Below are positions 5,015-25,896 of a stretch of DNA of 64,000 bases, one piece after another (within the stretch, counting starts at the first letter, position 1; every line of letters starts with the position of its first letter). Below the pieces are notes generated by a model. That model was not told where the DNA came from and did no database searches. It saw only the letters and a program-made list of their open reading frames with translations. A program made the position numbers and the translations under genes. This stretch comes from Candidatus Altimarinota bacterium (GTDB lineage: Bacteria > Patescibacteriota > Gracilibacteria > BD1-5 > UBA6164): positions 62,001 to 126,000 of the forward strand of contig JACFNZ010000003.1 in the NCBI GenBank assembly GCA_019454605.1. The letters run 5' to 3'.

Positions 5015-5548
5015 TTATTTATAAACCCAAGGAGCTATCATATTTAGTATAACTCAAGAAAGTAATACTAAGACTAATCATATAATTCATTTTACAATTC
5101 TTTTTTTAACTTCAGAAGTATCTGTCCCTGTTGATAACATAATTCAGTTAATAACAATAAACAAAACTCAACTAAGGGCACAAATAGCTGTAAACCATTT
5201 TATAATATTTCAAATAATTGCTTGAACTGATTTAAATCAAGGTTTTATTCGACATTCATATCATTTTTCATCATCTCAAGTACAATTTCCTCAAGGAACT
5301 TTTTCAGTTACTTTTACTTTTATAGGAGTAACTTCTGAGTTAGTGTTTGATGCTTTTGCTTTTTCAGCCTCTAAATCAGATATATCTTGCCTAATTCTTG
5401 TTGATACACTATCTTGTGGTGTATTTGATAATTGTTCTTCTAATGCTTTTATTTCTTTATCAATATCTTGAGTTGTTTTTTCTGCAAAAACATTATTTCA
5501 AACAATAAGTAAAATTAAAAAGAAAAAAGAAAGTATTATTTTTTTCAT
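5015..5548 (-). CDS. Secreted type IV secretion pilin-like membrane protein (one module)
   Basis: 177 residues. A signal peptide (MKKIILSFFFLILLIVGNNV FA-type) is followed by a charged coiled-coil (residues about 25-75), a Cys-containing region and two hydrophobic segments. The segments are separated by a motif reading S-T-G-T-D-T-S-E-V-K-K-R-I-V-K-G-I-I-G. This hydrophobic, then G-[DE]-x-x-K-x-x-x-x-K-x-I, then hydrophobic pattern resembles VirB2/TrbC-like T4SS pilins described in CPR and mycoplasma genomes. It is the last gene of the operon started by the VirD4-like ATPase and is separated from its neighbour by 15 nt. The pilin assignment is an inference from motif and context; I do not recognise the N-terminal half. 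Confidence 0.7.
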
Positions 5549-5563
5549 AATAAATAATTTATA

Positions 5564-6469
5564 TTAAAAGTTTAAAGTCTTTAAATCAAGTAGTATAGTA
5601 TAAGTTCAAACTAAAATTAAAACAGCTATTAATGTATTAAACACAATACTTTTAGCTTTTTTAACTTTGTCATCATCTCATCAAGAAGTGATATAATAAT
5701 ACCCTGCAAGTGATAGAAAAAATATAGCAATAGGTCAAGCAAAAAATAATGCTAAATTAGCTAAAGTTGCAAATAATTCTTGTCATTGTCATTTGAAATC
5801 TCACTTAAACATTACATTTCTCCAAACTTCCATAATTCAAATAAATATAAGTCAAGCAAGTGACCATAATATTTTTTTCTTTGATTCAGATACTTTTTCT
5901 TCATCTCAAGAGGCTATAATTATTTTTATTCCACTATAAACTATCATAAAAATAGCTATTCAAACTATAACTATTTCTAAAAAAGTTATTATATTTCCTA
6001 AAGTATTTCAAAAAACACTTGAATTCATAAATATATTTCTTTGATAAATAGTTATTCAATCTCAAGTTGTTGATGTGATATCATCAGTTGTCCTTTTGTC
6101 TGAAAACGAACTATATAATAATCAAGGTATATTTACAAATAACAATCATATTATAGCATACCATATAGATCTTTTACTTTCTGATAATCTTGCCTCATCA
6201 CTTCACATAGATATAACCATCATAGTTCAAGCATAAACTAAATATATAACAAGTAGTCATCAAATAACTATTTTAAAAGTTTTTAAAATATTGTTTGTAG
6301 TTTGTCATACTTGATTTTTCATATCTCAAGTTTTTGCATTTATAGATACATCTTTTATTTTAGATGTAGCATCTTGTGCTTTTTTAAAATCTATATTTCA
6401 AGCATTTACAAAATTTACACTAAAAATAATTGAAAATAATAAAAATATTTTTATAAAAGTTTTTTTCAT
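5564..6469 (-). CDS. Polytopic membrane protein with three pilin-like modules
   Basis: 301 residues with an N-terminal signal peptide (MKKTFIKIFLLFSIIFSVNF). Three repeated units each consist of a hydrophobic helix, a charged turn and a second helix. The turns read S-M-G-S-D-E-A-R-L-S-E-S-K-R, A-S-G-D-E-E-K-V-S-E-S-K-K-K and S-G-G-D-D-D-K-V-K-K-A-K-S. The same unit occurs once in the downstream gene and three times in the upstream gene, so this looks like a tandem multiplication of a T4SS-pilin unit. It probably sits in the inner membrane beside the VirD4-like ATPase. A VirB6-type channel role is possible on topology alone. No sequence signature fixes the function. Confidence 0.7.
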
Positions 6470-6478
6470 ATTTTTTTA

Positions 6479-7399
6479 TTAAAATTTATTTATAAAGAAA
6501 GTTAAAATCAAATAACTTCATACTAAAATTAACATTCATATTCATATATAAAGTAATATTTTTTTGGCTTTTTTTTGTTTTTCATCATCTCAAGCTCAAG
6601 TTAAAACTAAAAATCATGCATAAATAATCATTAAAACCATAATTATAGCAAGAAATGTATTAAACCAATTAAGTAGTGTTGTAATTATTTTAGCATTTCC
6701 TGTAACATTTTGACATATACTAGTTCAATAATAATGAAGTATACCTCACCCTCCACAATCAGGATTAAATGTATTTTTAACTATTATATCAGCAAATTTT
6801 ATAACTATAAATCAAATAATTGCTTGAAATATAATAGATTTTCATTTTTTTATTCATTCATCATCTCACCCAGCTGTAATTATTTTATAAAAAGCATAAA
6901 TTCACATAGCAAGAAATGCAAAAGATGCAAGTAACATTAACATTTCAGTAAATGGTTCTATTAATTTTTCTACAGCCTTATTTGCTAAATTATTATCAAC
7001 TGAATAATCAAACATAACTTTGTATACTGAGAATGCTATTTGCATAACAATTATTCAAACCGAAGCCCAAATAATTCACATTTTTAATTTTTTTTGCTCT
7101 TCATCTGTGTTTTCTCAAAAAATTAGCTTTATAACCATAATAACAGCAAAAAATAAAACTAATGCAAAAACTATAACTCTTAGATCACGAGCTATATTAA
7201 GTAAAAAATATTTTATTCATTTTTCTCAAGTTGTTCAAACATAAAAAAAATCATTTCCTTCAATTTCATTTAAATAATCATTATTTGTATCTCTACCAGT
7301 ATTTTCATTTGTTATTTTTATATTATTGTTTGCAAAAGAAAAACTTGGTATAAGTATAAAACTTAATATCAAAAGAATTTTTACTAAAATTTTTTTCAT
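6479..7399 (-). CDS. Polytopic membrane protein with three pilin-like modules (paralogue)
   Basis: 306 residues with signal peptide MKKILVKILLILSFILIPSF and about six membrane segments. Its three charged turns are E-N-T-D-E-E-Q-K-K-L-K-M, T-A-G-G-D-D-E-G-I-K-K-G-K-S and T-G-A-G-D-D-E-K-Q-K-K-A-K-K, each followed by a hydrophobic helix. The last is the closest to the classic pilin-like unit of CPR T4SS loci. It lies 26 nt downstream of the ATPase gene and 9 nt upstream of its paralogue, so all four genes are probably one transcript. Two cysteines between modules two and three might form a disulphide outside the membrane. The exact role is unknown. Confidence 0.7.
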
Positions 7400-7425: not shown

Positions 7426-10239
7426 TTAAGTGATTCAAAGTCTTGCCTCAATTTCCATATCTACATATTTTTTCTTTCTTCAATATTTTTTTCTTGAGTA
7501 TTCTTTTATAATTTTTGCTGCTTCTACATTTTTATAATTATTATCCCAAAGTGTTTTCATATCAAATGGACGAGTTGTAGCATTATTTATATTTAGTTTA
7601 ACATAAGTTGTAAAATTTGCAATACCAATTATATCTTGTTGTGATAAAAGTGGAGCATATTCTTTTTCTAAATACTCTGCGTCTTCAGCTCAAACTTTAA
7701 ATGACATAATTGTTCAAGCATTTCAAAATACGGCATCTTTAATTGATGGTTTATCTCATTTTTGTCAATTTTGTCATCCTATTTGAGCTATAAATTGATG
7801 TGCCATTATTAAAGCAAGTTTATATTTTCTAGCCTCACTTAAAATCTCTCAAAAAGTTTCTGTTGCAAAGTTTTGAAACTCATCAACATACATAAAAAAA
7901 TCTTTTCTATCTTCTTCTCTCATATCTGCTCTAGACATCGCTGCCATATTAACTTTTGAAACAAATATTAATCAAAGTAATTGTGCATTTAAAGCTCAAA
8001 TTTTTCATTTTGATAAATTTACTAAAAGAGCTTTTTTATTGTCCATTATATCTCTAATATTAAAAGCCGATTTTGGCTGACCTATAATATTTCTAATAGT
8101 TGTATTTGTAATAAATGGCCCAAATTTTGATGAGAAATAAGGTATCATTTCTTGTTTTTCTCTATCTCAAGTATTTGCATATTCATGTTCCCAAAATGAT
8201 TTTACTACAGGATTTGTAATTTTTGAAGTTTTGTATTTCATAAATCGATCATCAACAAAAAGTCTTGGAACATCTATCAAAGTTCATCAATCCTCAACAT
8301 CTTCCATCAAAGTCAAACATCAATTTCTAAAATAATGCTGTATACGAGGTCCAAAAACTTCATCTCAAAATATTTTTATAAATATTTCAGTAGCATCCAT
8401 TGCTGCTCTATCCATTTCTCTTTTTCTATTTTCTATATCAGAAGATATAACTTCTAACATATTTAATCACATTGGATATTCATCATCTGCTGGATCAAAA
8501 ACTATAGTATCACGAGCCCTTTCTTTAGGAGTAAATGCTAAAATATCTTCAACTAAATCTCAGTGTGGGTCTATAACTCAAAGTCAGTCTCAATTCCACA
8601 TATCTTGACGAGCAAGGTATCAAATAAATACAGATTTTCATCCTCAAGATTTTCAAATAATATAATGATGTCTTCCTCTATCTTTTTTATCAAAATATAT
8701 AGGTGTTTTTTTATTTCTATATTCATTATATCACATCAAAACTCCATCTTTATAAACAGGAAATCCACCCAAGTGTCTATGAACTTTTTTTAATTCAAAG
8801 AGATCTTCTAGTTTTTTTTCTCAAGAAATTTCATCAATTACTTCTTTTTGTCAAATTTTTACTTTTTCTTCTAAAATGCAAGGATCTTTTGGAAATTTTA
8901 AATTATGTGGTGGAGCTAGTTTTTTATAATCAAGCCAATTAATTATAGGGGATTTATTGTAGTTTATATCAGGAAAATGATATAGTGTTGATAATTCATC
9001 TGATGAAAATATTGAAACTCATTGAAAAAATCATAAAAATTTCATTTTAAATGCAAAGTATCTAATAGGAGTAAACAAAAAGTATAATCAATCTTCATAT
9101 GATTGTGGGTTATCTAAAGCATTGTTGTATTCATCTGTGAAAATAGATGAGGATGCAATTACAGCATGCACTCACTCTTTTGCTTTTATAGGACTTTTTG
9201 ATGAAACAAGCACTCTTATAGAAGTTCTAAATCAAGGTTGCCCTCGAGATTCTCACATAATTTTATGACTTTCTGTTTCTCGTTGATTAAATATTTTATA
9301 ACTATCTCATGAAGATGCTCCTGGTGCATTTGAACCTTGCACCATACTATCTGTTCATTGAACTAAAGCAACTATAGGATTCCAAAAAAAATCTAAAAAC
9401 GGTATATTTCTTGATTTTTTATATTCTCATTTAGCAACTAAAGATGCTGCATTTTTTGCTTTTTTATTCCACCTTGATCAAATAGGTTTTAAAACAATTT
9501 GATAAACAGCCTTGTCTTCCTTATCAAGAGAAGAAAAAACATTTGTAAAGTTATTTAATGGGTCATCTTCTAAATATTTAAATGATTTTATAGGATAAAC
9601 ATCATCATTTAATTTTGATAAAGATGCTGCTCTTAGAGTATATCAAAAAGGCTTTATATCAATATACTCTTTTTCTTTATCAATAATTCTAACTTCTGCA
9701 TCATTATAAATAGATGTAATATGTTGAGAAACTACATTAATATACTCTGGTAAAGTAATTATATAAAAGCTTAATTCTCAATTTTCATATACTAACTCAA
9801 GTGATATTTTTGAATGATCAAATATAAAATCTAAGAAACTATCTTTTAATCAAACATTTGAAAGTTTATGTATTGCTTTATAATACATACTCATCATTCA
9901 AATTTTTTCTTTAAAATCTTTTTTTGTTTCTTTTTCTTTATCAAGTTTTGAGTCCGCTTTTGGTAAAGTAACTTTTAAATAAACTAATTTTTTAAAAATG
10001 TGTATTTCATAAAAAATTCTAATTAACTTTAAAACAAAAAGTAAAGATATGAAAATAATTATTAAAAGAAGTACATAATAAAACACATCTCATAATGATC
10101 AAAAAAAATCAAATCATTTACTATTGTCTACCTTTTCAATATTTTTATTTGTTTCAAATCTTTTTGATGCATCAATTAAACTAGCAAAAGTAAATCTTGT
10201 AGTAGTTAAATATCAAATTATAATATATATTATTTTCAT
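7426..10239 (-). CDS. VirD4/TraG-like membrane-anchored DNA-translocating ATPase
   Basis: 937 residues. An N-terminal hydrophobic region and a transmembrane segment (around residues 50-75, Y-Y-V-L-L-L-I-I-I-F-I-S-L-L-F) precede a long unassigned domain. The P-loop ATPase follows, with Walker A G-K-S-G-G-G-K-S near residue 530 and V-I-D-P-H-G-D-L near residue 557. A Walker B-like segment, F-F-M-Y-V-D-E-F-Q-N-F, lies near residue 785. The DPHGDL and VDEFQNF motifs are characteristic of the VirD4/TraM-recognition ATPases common in CPR genomes. These proteins couple substrate DNA or protein to a secretion channel at the inner membrane. It is the first gene of the pilin-module operon and has its own promoter. 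The substrate cannot be told from sequence. Confidence 0.85.
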
Positions 10240-17654: not shown

Positions 17655-17685
17655 AAAAAGACTACTTAATTAAAAGTAGTCTTTT
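17655..17685 (-). terminator. Terminator of the TGA-free gene
   Basis: A 13-bp stem, AAAAAGACTACTT with AAAGTAGTCTTTTT, lies 30 nt past the stop of the 17716-18537 gene on the minus strand and is followed by T-rich sequence. Confidence 0.8.
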
Positions 17686-17715
17686 TAGTATTTTTGAAAT
17701 CCATAAGATAGGTTT

Positions 17716-18537
17716 TTAGCCCTTCAAGAATTTCAAAAGATCTTCCTCTCCATCAACAGGAGTCATACTTCCTCTCCTTGCCTCAAGTTTGGCAATAAGC
17801 TTTTGCTTGAGCCCATCAATGGAGTTAATATCAAAATCAGATTTGATATCAATTCCATGAGCCTCAATACAAAGCTTGAGTGGATTAATGCTACGAATAA
17901 CATATCTCGCCTGCCCCATGCTAAAGCCATTTTTTTGGACTTCAGAAGAAACAGGAGAGAGAGTTATTTCTTCTTCTTCTTTTGTTTTTTGTTTTTGTTC
18001 TTTTTCTTCTTCTTGTCCCCCATCTGTAATTGATTGACGGAGGGACTGAACTCCAAGGGCATTTGTTGCATGCTTTTCTCCTTCTTCAAAATTTTTAGCT
18101 GAAAGAACTTCAGCCAAGTTAGAGACTTCTTCATTCACTTTTGCAAGATCATCAAGTTTCCTCCTATTTGCAGTATTAACAGCCACCCTGGTCAAATTAC
18201 CAGCCAAAGCTGTGCTAATTTGACTAAGGCCACGGAAAGTGTTTGCAATATCTTGTGAAGTTGCTTTGTCTTGCAAAGTTGCTTCAAAGGTTTGAGATTC
18301 AGTCAAAATCGAGCTAAGGTTGAGAGACATTTTATCACCTCCATTTAGAGAAGAAATAGTTTCAAGTAATCCCTTTAGATCTTCTAAATACTTATTTTGT
18401 TTATTTTTTTTGTTTATAAAAATTCCAAGCAAAATAATGCCTAAAACTCCTATTATAACTAGAAAAATAAAAACAAGAAGTACCAAAAAATCATATTCGG
18501 GAGACAAAAAGAAATCTCGCCACATATTATTTTGCAT
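17716..18537 (-). CDS. TGA-free, GC-richer gene for a membrane-anchored coiled-coil protein (probably transferred)
   Basis: 273 residues. One membrane helix at about residues 17-42 is followed by a long helical, acidic cytoplasmic or extracytoplasmic part with an E/K-rich linker near residues 175-195, then a C-terminal domain (G-Q-A-R-Y-V-I-R-S-I-N-P-L-K-L). All 19 glycines use GGN and none uses TGA, unlike every long neighbour, and the G+C is visibly higher. It has a strong SD sequence (AAAGGAG, 7 nt before ATG), which neighbours lack. Inside, GGAGGTGATAAAATG at about 18328-18342 could start a second, soluble product of roughly 200 residues. It has its own promoter and terminator. I do not recognise the family; recent acquisition from a standard-code donor is inferred. 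Confidence 0.8.
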   Translation of the reverse strand: MQNNMWRDFFLSPEYDFLVLLVFIFLVIIGVLGIILLGIFINKKNKQNKYLEDLKGLLETISSLNGGDKMSLNLSSILTESQTFEATLQDKATSQDIANTFRGLSQISTALAGNLTRVAVNTANRRKLDDLAKVNEEVSNLAEVLSAKNFEEGEKHATNALGVQSLRQSITDGGQEEEKEQKQKTKEEEEITLSPVSSEVQKNGFSMGQARYVIRSINPLKLCIEAHGIDIKSDFDINSIDGLKQKLIAKLEARRGSMTPVDGEEDLLKFLKG

Positions 18538-18561
18538 AGCACTCCTTTTTAAAGAAGTAAC

Positions 18562-18591
18562 TTAATATTACTAATTATTTACTTTTGTCAA
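18562..18591 (-). promoter_or_regulatory. Strong promoter of the TGA-free gene
   Basis: Minus-strand TTGACA (18586-18591), 18-bp spacer and TATTAA (18562-18567), followed by the SD sequence AAAGGAG and ATG at 18537. This is one of the best -35 boxes in the window. Confidence 0.65.
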
Positions 18592-18605: not shown

Positions 18606-19712
18606 TTATTTTTTTAAATAAAAATAAGCAAGTTCATTTCAATTATAAAGTTTTCTATTTTTATAATTTTTTTGTTTAATTATTTGATTAAATTCAGTAT
18701 AAGAAGTGATAATTCATCCACTTAAATCTTTATTTTTTTGTAATATAAAATCAATATTTTCATACATATTTTTTATATTATCTTCTTTTAGTCTAAGTCA
18801 ATATGGTGGATTTGAAATCAAAGTTCAAGATAATTTTTCTGTTTTATAATCTTTAAAATCTTTTAATTCAAACTTTATACTATCTTCCACTTTTGCATTT
18901 TTAGCATTTTGTATAGCTTTAGTTAAAACTTCTTGATCAATATCAGATGCAATTATATTATAATTTTTTTTAAAAATCTTTTCTTTTGCTTCTTTTCTTA
19001 AATTAAAAAAATAATTTTCTGGGAGTAAATTCCAATCTTCAAAAGCAAAGTATCTAAAAAGTCCTGGAGCTATATTTTTTGCAAATAAAGCTGCTTCAAT
19101 AGCAATTGTCCCGCTTCAACAAAATATATCATAAAAAGGTGTGTCAAATTTCCAATTTGATAAAATAATTAAAGCAGCAGCAAGTGATTCTTTTATAGGA
19201 GCTTCTCAAGTATCTGTTTTGTATCATCTTTTATATAAAGTTTCTCAAGATGTATTTAATAAAATAAAAGTTTCATCTTCAATTAAAAAACTCAAAACTT
19301 CAAAAATAGGCTTAGAATCTTCTTCTGGCATTTTATTTCATGATTTAGAAGTCATTTTATCAACAATTGCTTTTTTTGTTATTGATTGTAGTGCTGGTGT
19401 ACTTGTTAATTTTGATTTTATAGAAGTTGCTTTAGTAACAACTCTATAATACCTATTTATATATTTTTTCCAATCAATTTCATAAACTAAATCATATAAT
19501 TTATCAAAATTATCAATATTTTTTTTAGAGTTTAATACTAAATAAAGTTTATTTCAAACTCTACTCCATAAATTTAATTTTGCCATTAACTCTATAGGTC
19601 ACTCAAAAAAAACAAGTCTATCTTTTGTTTGAGTGATAATTCATCATTGTTTTTCTATTTCTTTTTTAAGTATTGCTTCAAGTCAAGCACTACATGTAAG
19701 TAAAAATTTCAT
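18606..19712 (-). CDS. THUMP-domain rRNA N2-guanine or N6-adenine methyltransferase (RlmL/YcbY-like)
   Basis: 368 residues. An N-terminal ferredoxin-like/THUMP region (MKFLLTCSAGLEAILKKEIE) is followed by a Rossmann methyltransferase of the UPF0020 family. The SAM-binding motif D-I-F-C-G-S-G-T-I-A-I-E-A-A is near residue 197 and the catalytic S-N-P-P-Y-G near residue 304. The family methylates 23S rRNA (G2445) or tRNA. The length fits a single methyltransferase, not the double RlmKL fusion. No linked gene reveals the target. Confidence 0.9.
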
Positions 19713-22569: not shown

Positions 22570-25500
22570 TTATTTAACTGTAGAAACAAATACTGATTTT
22601 AGTCAAGCATTTTCATATACTTTAACACTTGGAATTTCAGTTGTTTCAAGATCTGATAATTCAAGTTGTAATGAAGGAGTTCCTGTAAATCATGGATTTA
22701 AAGTAGCACCTGACACTACTAGTATAAATGTAGCATCTCCACCTGCAGTAACAGTTACATTAGTTCCTGAAGCAAAGTTTACTAAATTGTCATTTGAAAC
22801 TGAATTTTTATATAGAACTAAATTTGATGAATTTAGAGTTCCAGTATATCATACAGCTTGAGTTATATTAGCAGTCATACCACTTAATGTAACTTCATCT
22901 TTACCATATGCAGTAACTTTAAATGATAATGCATTATTTAAAGTTGGAGTAGATATAGAGTTTTGAGTTACAAGTAATGTATTTTCAGCTAAGAAATGAG
23001 TTGCAGAAACAAATCAAGTTCCAGTAGCTACAACAGCAGTACCATTTGAACTATTTGAAGAAACTTTAGTTACAGCTAATTCAACTGATCCAGTAGAATT
23101 ATAGTTAGCATTAGCTTGAACTGTAAAGTTTACAAATTTATCAACTAATATTTCACTATCAACAGAAGCAATATCATCAAATGATAATGATCCTGAAGAA
23201 ATAGAGTTAGCAACACCAACTTGTTTTCCATTAGCAAATAATCTATAATTAGAGAATTTATCTAAGTTTGTTCAAGTAAATGAAACATCATCTAATTGTA
23301 ATTTATCATTTTTAGCATTTACTCTAAATGAGAATAAATTAACATTTTCTTGTCAAGCTTTAATTAAAGTAGCTTTTGGAGAAGCATCAGTAGATGCAAC
23401 TGTAGAAGTAGCAGCTTTAACAGATATTAATGCTCAAACTGGAGTTGAAGAAGCAGATACTGATTTACCAGTTTCTGAATCAATAGCATCAACTGAATTT
23501 AAAGTTAATTTAAAGCTTCAAGCAGTAAATGAACTATATAAGTTAGCTTTAACTTGGATATTTACAGCAGAATCTTTTGAAACTTTTGCATTAAATCATT
23601 CAAATCTAACAGTTGAACCATCAAGTAATTTTGATGAAACAGCATTTCCATTTACATATAATGTAGCATATACATTTTGATTAGCACTTCCAGAATAAGT
23701 TACACCAAAAGTAGCAGCATTTAAGTTAATAGGATTTCCTTTTGTTGAAGTAAATTGAGCTCCATATACTAATACTCATTCACTTGGAGATGAAACAGTA
23801 GTATCTCATAGAGAATCATTTCTAGCAACATTTAATACAGAATCTTGAACTTTAACATTTATAGAAGAAATTGATCAAATCATATCTTCTACTGATTGTT
23901 GATTAGATACATATTCTTTCTCAACAAATGATCAAGCAGTCATTGATCCGATTTTAAATGAACCTGTAGCAGTTCCTTTTAAGTTACCATAAACTTTTAC
24001 ATTTTGAGTACCTTGAACATAAACAGTTCCTTTAAAGTTTAAATCAACTCATGAGTTAGTTGGAGTAGCAGAAATAACACTATTTCCTATAGATAAGTAG
24101 ATAGTATTAAATAAATCTCCTAAATTAAGTGTTGTTGCTCCAGAAAGAGTAACATCTTTTAATTTAACTTGATTTTTAGCAGTAATAGTACCTTTAAGTA
24201 AAACTACTTCTGAACTTCCTGGTGCATAAGTTGCATCTAAAGCAGTAGTAGAATCTCTTTCAAGTCTAGTTTCTCCTCAAGTAACATTAACAACAGTTAA
24301 TAATTTAACAGATGAACTATTAACTAAAGTTCTAAATCAATTAGTTGCTTCAGTTACATTAAGATCAGAATCATCTCTTAATCTTAATTGGTAAGTATCA
24401 GTTGAGTTTTCAACTTTTGAAACATTAGCTTTTACATAGTAAATAGCTGATAATCCTGATTTAACTAAGTTTTTATCAACAACTAAAGTTAAATATCTTC
24501 CATTAACAGAAGAAGAAGTTGAAACAACAACTCAATCTCTAACTAATTGGAAATTAGATAAATTATCTAAAGAAGCACTTCCTGATAAGTAAAGAGAAAC
24601 AGAGTTTAAATTTACATCAGTAGTTGATTTTCCATTTGGAGTATTATTAGTTAATCTAAATGCTCCTAAATCAATTAAATCAGAAGAAGCTTTATAGTTT
24701 TGAGTAGTTGCTACTGAATCAAAAGTTATATTGTTAACTGTATAGTTAGCAGTTCTAAGTTTTGGAGTAACAAATGATCCAGAAACATTTAAAGCAGAAG
24801 AATTAACAGTTGATGAAGCGAATTGATAATCAACTCAAGCATTACTTTGTAATCCAACATATAAATCTAAAGTTTCAGTAGATCAAGCTTTAACAACATA
24901 AGCAGGAGCAAAAGAAACAACAGCAGTACCTTCATTATTAAATGAAACTTCTGAAGAAACTTTTTTACCATTTACTTCAAACCATACTTCATTATCTGAA
25001 TTAACATTTCCTAAACCAACTTTTTTAAGTTCTAATGTGTTTAAAGAAACATCAGAAGCTCAAGCAGTAAAGTCAACTTTAGCAAATAATACAGATCCTG
25101 TTCCAGGAACTTCAGTTCCATTAGCAGGAGATCCTGGATTTAAAGAAACTTCTAAATTTCAAGCTTTAACTTGAGTATTATTATCAGCTCCAGTAGAAGT
25201 AGTTCCAGTTGAAGTAGTTCCAGTTGAAGTAGCACCACTACCTGAACCATCACCAAATAAATCTCCAAATAGATCATCTAAATCTAAATCACCATCTGTA
25301 TCAGCTCCTTCACTATCAGTAGCAGTTACTCAAGCATCAGCAGTAGTAAATACAAATGATCTTTTAGCAGCAGCAACTCCAGAAACTTTAGTAGTTTCAG
25401 AAACAACTCCAGCTTCAACAGCAGCTGAAGTTAAATCAGCAACCCAAGTTTTAGCATCATAAGTATCAAGACCAACACCTAAAGCTTCCATAACCATTTT

Positions 25501-25896
25501 TAAAGTTTCAGCTTCAGTAATTGAATCATTTGGTCTAAATTTTGAATTAGCAGATAAAAATCCTAATTCTAAACCTTTTTCAACATATCCACAAACCCAA
25601 TCATTTGGAGTTTTAGCAGATACATCTGAGAATTTACCTTCACAAGTAGTGTTTGGTTCTTCTCCAGCTAAGTTTAACATAACTTTAGCCATTTCTCCTC
25701 TAGTTATAGAATCATTTAATCTATAAGCAGAAGGATTTTCTGAATTATTGTTGATAATTCCTAATGCAGCTAATCTATTAGCAGCATCTACAGAAGAATC
25801 AGCAGCATTAACTCCAACAACTGGACTAACTACTGATAAAACAATAGATAATGCAGCAGCAGAAGCTACAGCTTTTTTAAATAGAGTATTACTCAT
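22570..25896 (-). CDS. SLH-domain S-layer or surface protein
   Basis: 1108 residues. A signal peptide (MSNTLFKKAVASAAALSIVL, cleavage near residue 31 after V-N-A) is followed by two SLH repeats at about residues 35-165. These contain A-A-N-R-L-A-A-L-G-I-I, Y-R-L-N-D-S-I-T-R-G-E-M and F-R-P-N-D-S-I-T-E-A-E-T. Next come an acidic Asp-rich segment (D-T-D-G-D-L-D-L-D-D-L-F) that may bind calcium and a Thr/Ser/Gly repeat linker. A long beta-rich region with many Ser, Thr, Asn and Val fills the rest. SLH repeats bind pyruvylated wall polymer. The first 188 residues use only GGN for 12 glycines, while TGA appears later. It is likely the main surface protein, given size and a long structured leader. 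Confidence 0.88.

Follow-up and report, generated by a model that had tools for sequence, protein, structure and literature searches.

Chromosomal genes that appear to be kept in the standard code by code-25 bacteria

Bacteria of the Gracilibacteria/SR1 type use genetic code 25, in which UGA is read as glycine. One gene, here termed X, in a 64,000-nucleotide stretch of a Candidatus Altimarinota genome (contig JACFNZ010000003.1, positions 62,001 to 126,000, referred to as the window) makes no use of this codon. An earlier note on the same DNA took the gene to be a recent transfer from a standard-code organism, possibly a host or a neighbour. The question raised by this locus is whether gene X is such an import or whether its standard-code state is inherited, and in which kind of cell the gene might then be read.

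Composition and signals of gene X

The genome of the window, G000, comprises 1,003,338 bases in 11 contigs and was read except for ∼0.6 kb. Gene X, its expression signals and the adjoining genes are located in the window as follows:

17716-18537, minus strand: gene X, 273 amino acids, ATG start, TAA stop
18542-18550, minus strand: Shine-Dalgarno (SD) site AAAAAGGAG (AAGGAG), upstream of the gene X start codon
18564-18591, minus strand: gene X promoter, with TTGACA at 18586-18591, a 16-nt spacer and a weak -10 element, AATATT, at 18564-18569
17655-17686, minus strand: intrinsic terminator after gene X, hairpin and T-run, scored on both strands
18606-19712, minus strand: upstream neighbour, RlmL-type rRNA methyltransferase (Pfam UPF0020, 6.5e-45), code 25, 14 TGA among 17 glycine codons
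15770-17593, minus strand: downstream neighbour, MutL, code 25, 28 TGA among 32 glycine codons
19792-20772: gene adjoining rlmL, an adjacency conserved in the related genomes G001 and G003

Native code-25 genes encode glycine largely as TGA, which accounts for 84% of the glycine codons in 859 non-overlapping code-25 open reading frames of G000. The 19 glycine codons of gene X are all GGN (GGA 10, GGC 4, GGG 3, GGT 2), as had been observed earlier along with the TGA-rich neighbours; at the genome rate, the chance of finding no TGA among 19 is ∼1e-15. The gene also differs in base composition. Its GC content is 0.355, compared with 0.225 for the window, and its GC3 is 0.26, compared with 0.128 or less in the 47 other tabulated open reading frames of the window and 0.088 genome-wide in the 859 code-25 frames. 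Arginine is encoded mostly by CGN codons, which make up 5% of the arginine codons in native genes. The GC-rich stretch matches the open reading frame except for the first ∼130 nt (the N-terminal, transmembrane part), which are AT-rich. In codon usage, gene X has the worst fit among the real coding sequences of G000; the open reading frames of at least 100 amino acids that fit worse are all in the rRNA operon. The comparison with the genome that the earlier note had proposed thus bears out its impression of a GC-richer gene: among the real coding genes of G000, none is more atypical than gene X, whose composition is of foreign type in GC, GC3, and glycine and arginine codons.

A promoter, an SD site and a terminator had been claimed for the gene as well. 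All three were located, and they are rare among native genes. The TTGACA box is found with all eight X genes described below (8/8) and with 4-5% of native genes (5% in G000, within 100 nt upstream). Native leaders of G000 are almost G-free and lack an SD; strong SD sites were found in 0 of 664 native genes of G000 and in 0 of 660 of G122, a relative that also carries X. The AAGGAG of gene X, on the other hand, has a duplex energy of -7.9 kcal/mol with the 16S tail of its own genome and -8.2 kcal/mol with the canonical tail. The scan that gave the terminator found 2 terminator-like sites, against 0.5 expected. With a TAA stop and no TGA glycine, the gene is readable in both codes, again as had been supposed.

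The 3′ tail of 16S rRNA in G000, G003, G006 and G010 is GGACTATCTCCTTAT, and the textbook tail is GATCACCTCCTTA. A loss of the anti-SD was considered and rejected: CCTCC was not found in the tail, yet CUCCUU remains. Since CUCCUU is kept, the presence of an SD is by itself no proof of foreign reading.

A surface protein gene with SLH domains (window 22570-25896, minus strand) also encodes glycine mostly by GGA and GGT, with TGA at 22 of 92 positions, and has a GC3 of 0.046. It could be argued from its low TGA share that gene X displays no more than the usual codon bias of native genes at high expression. However, the GC3 of the SLH gene deviates in the opposite direction, as this biased native gene favours A/T-ending codons, and expression-level bias was rejected for gene X. 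An assembly or binning artefact would have to account for a pattern that recurs in independent assemblies, on long contigs with clearly code-25 flanks. Both explanations are already refuted by recurrence across eight genomes for X and 15 for a second family, S, and they retain next to no credibility.

The gene X protein is predicted to have an N-terminal transmembrane helix (residues ∼17-41), a helical middle part, a charged linker and a C-terminal helical domain (∼206-273). In the AlphaFold2 model, which is of low confidence as a whole, pLDDT is 57 overall and ∼80 for the transmembrane helix and the C-terminal domain. Searches of Pfam, NCBIfam, PHROGs and PDB sequences with the protein gave no significant match.

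Relatives of gene X and their age

A single-sequence search with X gave one weak full-length match, in the GC-rich code-25 genome G058, and three separate regions of the G000 and G058 proteins align far above shuffles. Other single-sequence matches in Patescibacteria proved to be transmembrane or coiled-coil noise; G058 alone held. A two-sequence profile of these proteins detected X in G001 and G003 (same genus, E ∼1e-22) and in G006, G024, G031 and G122 (genus g4), and a seven-row profile recovers full X genes at E 1e-77 or better. By profile search, X is present in eight of 353 genomes of the class, G000 included. No further convincing members were found in the 353 class genomes or in 356 sampled genomes of the phylum, G019 being a weak candidate, and X is absent from G002. 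Each genome in the comparison is represented by a single assembly.

All eight genomes that carry X are code 25. The neighbours of X in genera g1 and g4 are rich in in-frame TGA, and G058 uses TGA at conserved-looking glycine positions, for example in a LysM motif. Among the 101 glycine codons of the seven full X genes, TGA does not occur (0/101). The stop codon, by contrast, is TGA in six of the eight X genes (G003, G006, G031, G122, G024 and G058) and TAA in those of G000 and G001. In five of the TGA-ended genes (G003, G031, G122, G006 and G024), an intrinsic terminator lies directly 3′ of the TGA, and if the TGA is read as glycine the frame crosses this terminator before any TAA. The spacer between TGA and hairpin in genus g4 is 22, 21, 22 and 21 nt long; the frame beyond the TGA is therefore not conserved, and the functional end of X is the TGA. 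In G058 (L002 2380-2631 and L107), the frame after the X TGA enters sequence that is repeated elsewhere in the genome.

The neighbours of X are rlmL and mutL in G000, and LysM, GDH, ABC-F and T4SS-type genes in the relatives. In the sister genome G001, rlmL and mutL are ∼80 kb apart, which places X at a rearrangement breakpoint in G000. X is syntenic in four g4 species, where the order is GDH, ABC-F, usually a methyltransferase, X and a LysM-type gene, and where X has a common leader and terminator. The LysM-type gene directly after X is homologous in G001, G003, G058 and the four g4 genomes, which represent two taxonomic families, and is gone in G000. Three copies, all in code 25, are located at:

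L143 9755-10534: LysM-type gene after X in G001
L145 10280-10996: LysM-type gene after X in G031
L002 2805-3716: LysM-type gene after X in G058

The encoded protein has no Pfam match and no obvious signal peptide. Upstream of the gene, the X promoter and leader of G000 can be aligned with their G001 and G003 counterparts at a score of 64, whereas 500 shuffles reached at most 40. The X proteins themselves have diverged; those of G000 and G001 are only 26% identical, whereas other proteins of the two genomes are ∼74% identical.

The full-length g4 X genes display a dN/dS of ∼0.2 and four-fold differences of 0.37-0.47. Their four-fold sites differ as much as those of the neighbouring GDH and ABC-F genes, which are close to saturation there, and four-fold GC is 0.27-0.40 in X compared with 0.01-0.07 in GDH and ABC-F. 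Judged from this substitution pattern, X is under purifying selection in g4. The N-terminal part of X and ABC-F both place G006 and G024 as the closest pair, and the phylogeny of X looks vertical.

Synteny, sequence turnover, the LysM neighbour and the orthology of the promoter together mean that recent transfer is not supported as an explanation, and that a simple lag in amelioration fails too. Of the transfer proposed in the earlier note, the standard code and the foreign composition stand, but its recency does not, in view of the orthologues in G001, G003 and g4. The sister genomes to which that note had pointed, G001 and G003, carry X with a shared promoter and leader, and X is absent in G002; no standard-code donor, host or neighbour, was found in the collections searched. 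TGA-glycine orthologues with a vertical phylogeny had been named as the observation that would speak against transfer. The phylogeny does look vertical, but all orthologues are without TGA glycine and most are TGA-stopped.

A second family, other cassettes and the question of origin

Family S was found through a scan for SD-led open reading frames outside native genes in G000 and in 0.89 Mb of G122. A scan of G000 by codons alone had been swamped by antisense open reading frames until an SD was required, and a TrpR-like gene that the SD-led scan gave in G122 turned out on reading to be no separate gene but a start inside a native one. S genes encode proteins of 66-73 amino acids unrelated to X; of the 48 genomes of the taxonomic family, 15 carry them. 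The 18 copies contain 144 glycine codons, none of them TGA, and in 16 copies the stop codon is TGA, with a terminator behind it. An SD, mostly AGGAGG, is found upstream of all copies. In the genes that flank 15 of the S copies, TGA makes up 47-87% of glycine codons. Three members are found in G000:

C10:29886-30095, minus strand: S gene with a TGA stop before a terminator
C6:158265-158483, minus strand: S gene of a tandem pair
C6:158558-158722, minus strand: S gene of the same pair, which looks truncated

The tandem pair is AT-richer and has TAA stops. For the small S protein, a beta fold plus a helix at the C-terminus is predicted (model pLDDT 84). Searches of Pfam, PHROGs and PDB with S gave nothing convincing; the best PDB alignments of the model have Z of 4.3 or less, and Foldseek against PDB and BFVD gave no significant match.

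Most of the X and S genes that stop at TGA have no in-frame TAA or TAG before the terminator, and the S genes of G001, G125 and G032 have a backup TAA or TAG at most four codons from the TGA. In G125, G032, G030 and G018, the GC3 of S falls to 0.14-0.16 and the gene still has no TGA glycine and ends in TGA; code and composition are thus separate signals. The TGA stop has been kept in ∼7 lineages, although these genomes are AT-rich and a single G-to-A substitution is enough to give TAA, which suggests that TGA is favoured. The chance of this, roughly estimated at 26% TGA per lineage, is 8e-5.

X and S share the absence of TGA glycine, a non-native codon usage, a consensus SD, a promoter and terminator of their own, and mostly a TGA stop. 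On the comparative evidence, they are shown to belong to a small, conserved class on the chromosome, of at least these two families, for which code-25 bacteria of the Gracilibacteria/SR1 type retain the standard code. That this state is old is likewise shown, as far as genomes can tell, by genus-level synteny, gene trees that follow genera, and purifying selection. Among the open-licence papers searched, none was found to describe chromosomal genes that retain the standard code.

Further SD-led or TGA-free genes were seen in genus g4:

L146 12423-12737, minus strand (G122), and L145 ∼5770-6105, plus strand (G031): acyl carrier protein gene (PF00550), GC-rich, no TGA glycine, TGA stop before a terminator in G122; located between GDH and ABC-F in both genomes and missing there in G006 and G024
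G122 C3:275620-276876, plus strand: NhaD/CitMHS-like transporter cassette, GC3 0.48, 27 glycine codons with no TGA, GGAGG SD, TAA stop, GC-rich terminator
G122 C3:2725-2994, 116128-116343 and 423821-424006: short SD-led open reading frames (89, 71 and 61 amino acids) with their own terminators and TAA stops

The X and S cassettes might circulate in standard-code bacteria, either prey or Patescibacteria, and be re-imported so often that they never adapt. Uptake of host DNA has been proposed for such bacteria, and UGA reassignment has been discussed as a barrier to foreign genes (PMC8080830). Atypical composition, the cassette anatomy with its own promoter, SD and terminator, and the patchy distribution of X (eight of 353 class genomes) are consistent with repeated transfer, as are the G122 cassettes that look imported, for example the transporter with its 27 glycines and no TGA. 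Against this stand the synteny and the orthologous promoter and terminator in four species, the LysM neighbour conserved across two families, and the agreement between the trees of X and its flanking genes. In addition, no standard-code donor or homologue of X or S was found, at the sensitivity used, in genome_contigs (∼85,000 species), IMG/VR, plasmids or phages, and a convincing standard-code homologue is also missing from ∼350-380 sampled genomes of the phylum. Repeated transfer is therefore considered unlikely, though still to be reckoned with; for the patchier cassettes, re-import from an unsampled standard-code pool is possible.

Phage morons also have their own promoter and terminator, an anatomy that fits X and S. 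The two families might thus come from, or still serve, phages or satellites, and have been domesticated as morons. CRISPR spacers link phages that are compatible with code 11 and lack in-frame TGA to Gracilibacteria/Absconditabacteria (PMC10746230), and these phages resemble X and S in that TGA-free genes are associated with code-25 bacteria. However, they are phage genomes with backup stops close after the TGA (PMC10746230), whereas X and S are single, syntenic chromosomal genes that mostly have none before the terminator. Moreover, no phage genes lie beside X in the window or in G001 and g4, and no homologue was detected in IMG/VR or phage records. A phage origin accordingly seems quite improbable.

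Where the genes may be read

RF2 was not found in G000, G001, G051 and G058, where the single match in each genome is RF1-like with an RF1-type PxT (PET) motif; this agrees with the description of BD1-5 genomes without prfB (PMC6851277). G000 has a tRNA with the anticodon UCA, and no tmRNA was detected by ARAGORN. The leaders of X and S pair well with both forms of the 16S tail, so native initiation is possible, but 19 of 26 pair more strongly with the canonical tail (mean -10.4 kcal/mol, compared with -8.6 kcal/mol for the native tail).

The genes might accordingly be expressed at home under a special, SD-dependent regime, for example in dormancy with scarce Gly-tRNA(UCA), where internal TGA would be avoided and the terminal TGA would be tolerated as a stall or slow stop. 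The CUCCUU of the native 16S tail means that SDs can work at home. But with no RF2 and no tmRNA detected, UGA-ended messages would jam, and TGA persists although these genomes are AT-rich and each stop could be repaired by one G-to-A substitution. Such a regime must also explain the G/C-ending codons, which natives avoid, the SLH protein gene among them. We rate it as improbable.

The likeliest place of translation for X and S is a cell that uses the standard code, probably that of the host. The explanation as a whole, a class of standard-code genes read by such a cell, is put forward tentatively, with belief and doubt close to balance. Selection would hold the standard code where the product is made on a standard-code ribosome, and the likeliest such ribosome would be that of a host or prey bacterium of the epibiont. 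Studied bacteria of this type live on other bacteria (PMC8080830, PMC13059738), which makes the host the nearest source of a standard-code ribosome. The signals of X and S are of a kind suited to such a recipient: standard code, canonical SD, TTGACA promoter and mostly a TGA stop.

It is hypothesized that the gene, as DNA or transcript, is passed to the recipient, perhaps through a type IV secretion system (T4SS). Components of such a system are found in the window, 8-13 kb from X:

7426-10239, minus strand: T4SS coupling-protein-like ATPase (T4SS-DNA_transf; Pfam PF02534 3.4e-11, PF10412 1.1e-5)
5015-5548, 5564-6469 and 6479-7399, minus strand: three T4SS pilin-like genes (Pfam PF18895 4e-7, 2e-19 and 3e-20), which adjoin the coupling-protein gene

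T4SS genes are near X in G000 and G001 and absent from the g4 stretches seen; any link between T4SS and X is putative. Patescibacterial T4SS are usually without a relaxase (PMC12102498), which speaks against plain conjugation.

In the donor cytoplasm, where UGA would be read as glycine and RF1 would be the only release factor, most copies would be read on to the end of the transcript. The TGA stop would then act as a code lock, with a clean product in the recipient only. Such a lock would be leaky, given the TAA stops of X in G000 and G001 and the backup stops in three S genes. In the recipient, X would span the inner membrane once, with its C-terminal domain in the cytoplasm, and S would act as a soluble beta protein of small size. 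That code-25 epibionts pass standard-code genes to the host for expression there, with the terminal TGA as a code lock at home, is a possibility viewed with more doubt than belief.

Several known systems offer partial likenesses. As in Agrobacterium T-DNA, the signals and codons of X and S fit a recipient and not the bearer, and a T4SS ATPase is near X. The analogy is a working one: here both partners would be bacterial, and the code itself would be the lock. Alien genes detected by composition resemble X and S in having GC, codon usage and signals foreign to the genome; X and S differ in being old and common to relatives, with a composition that is kept and not ameliorating. Engineered code-locking and genetic firewalls (for example PMC12269064) also give a proper product under one genetic code only, but the engineered lock protects its bearer, whereas that of X and S would be natural and directed outwards.

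If host expression is true, the genetic code would serve as an address label, and genes for another cell could be read from the genome. This would represent a bacterium-to-bacterium counterpart of T-DNA, would give the reassignment of UGA to glycine a use in biology, and would be a case in nature of the genetic firewall sought by synthetic biologists; it would also provide a direct pointer to host-acting genes of uncultured Patescibacteria. Even without host expression, something keeps two unrelated families from adapting to the code of their own genome.

Two other TGA-poor loci in G000, both AT-rich, are likely imports from a standard-code bacterium:

C5:11056-11580, minus strand: glucosaminidase, 0 TGA among 12 glycine codons
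C6:65838-67395, plus strand: PAS and chemoreceptor-like open reading frames in two overlapping frames, 1 TGA among 23 glycine codons
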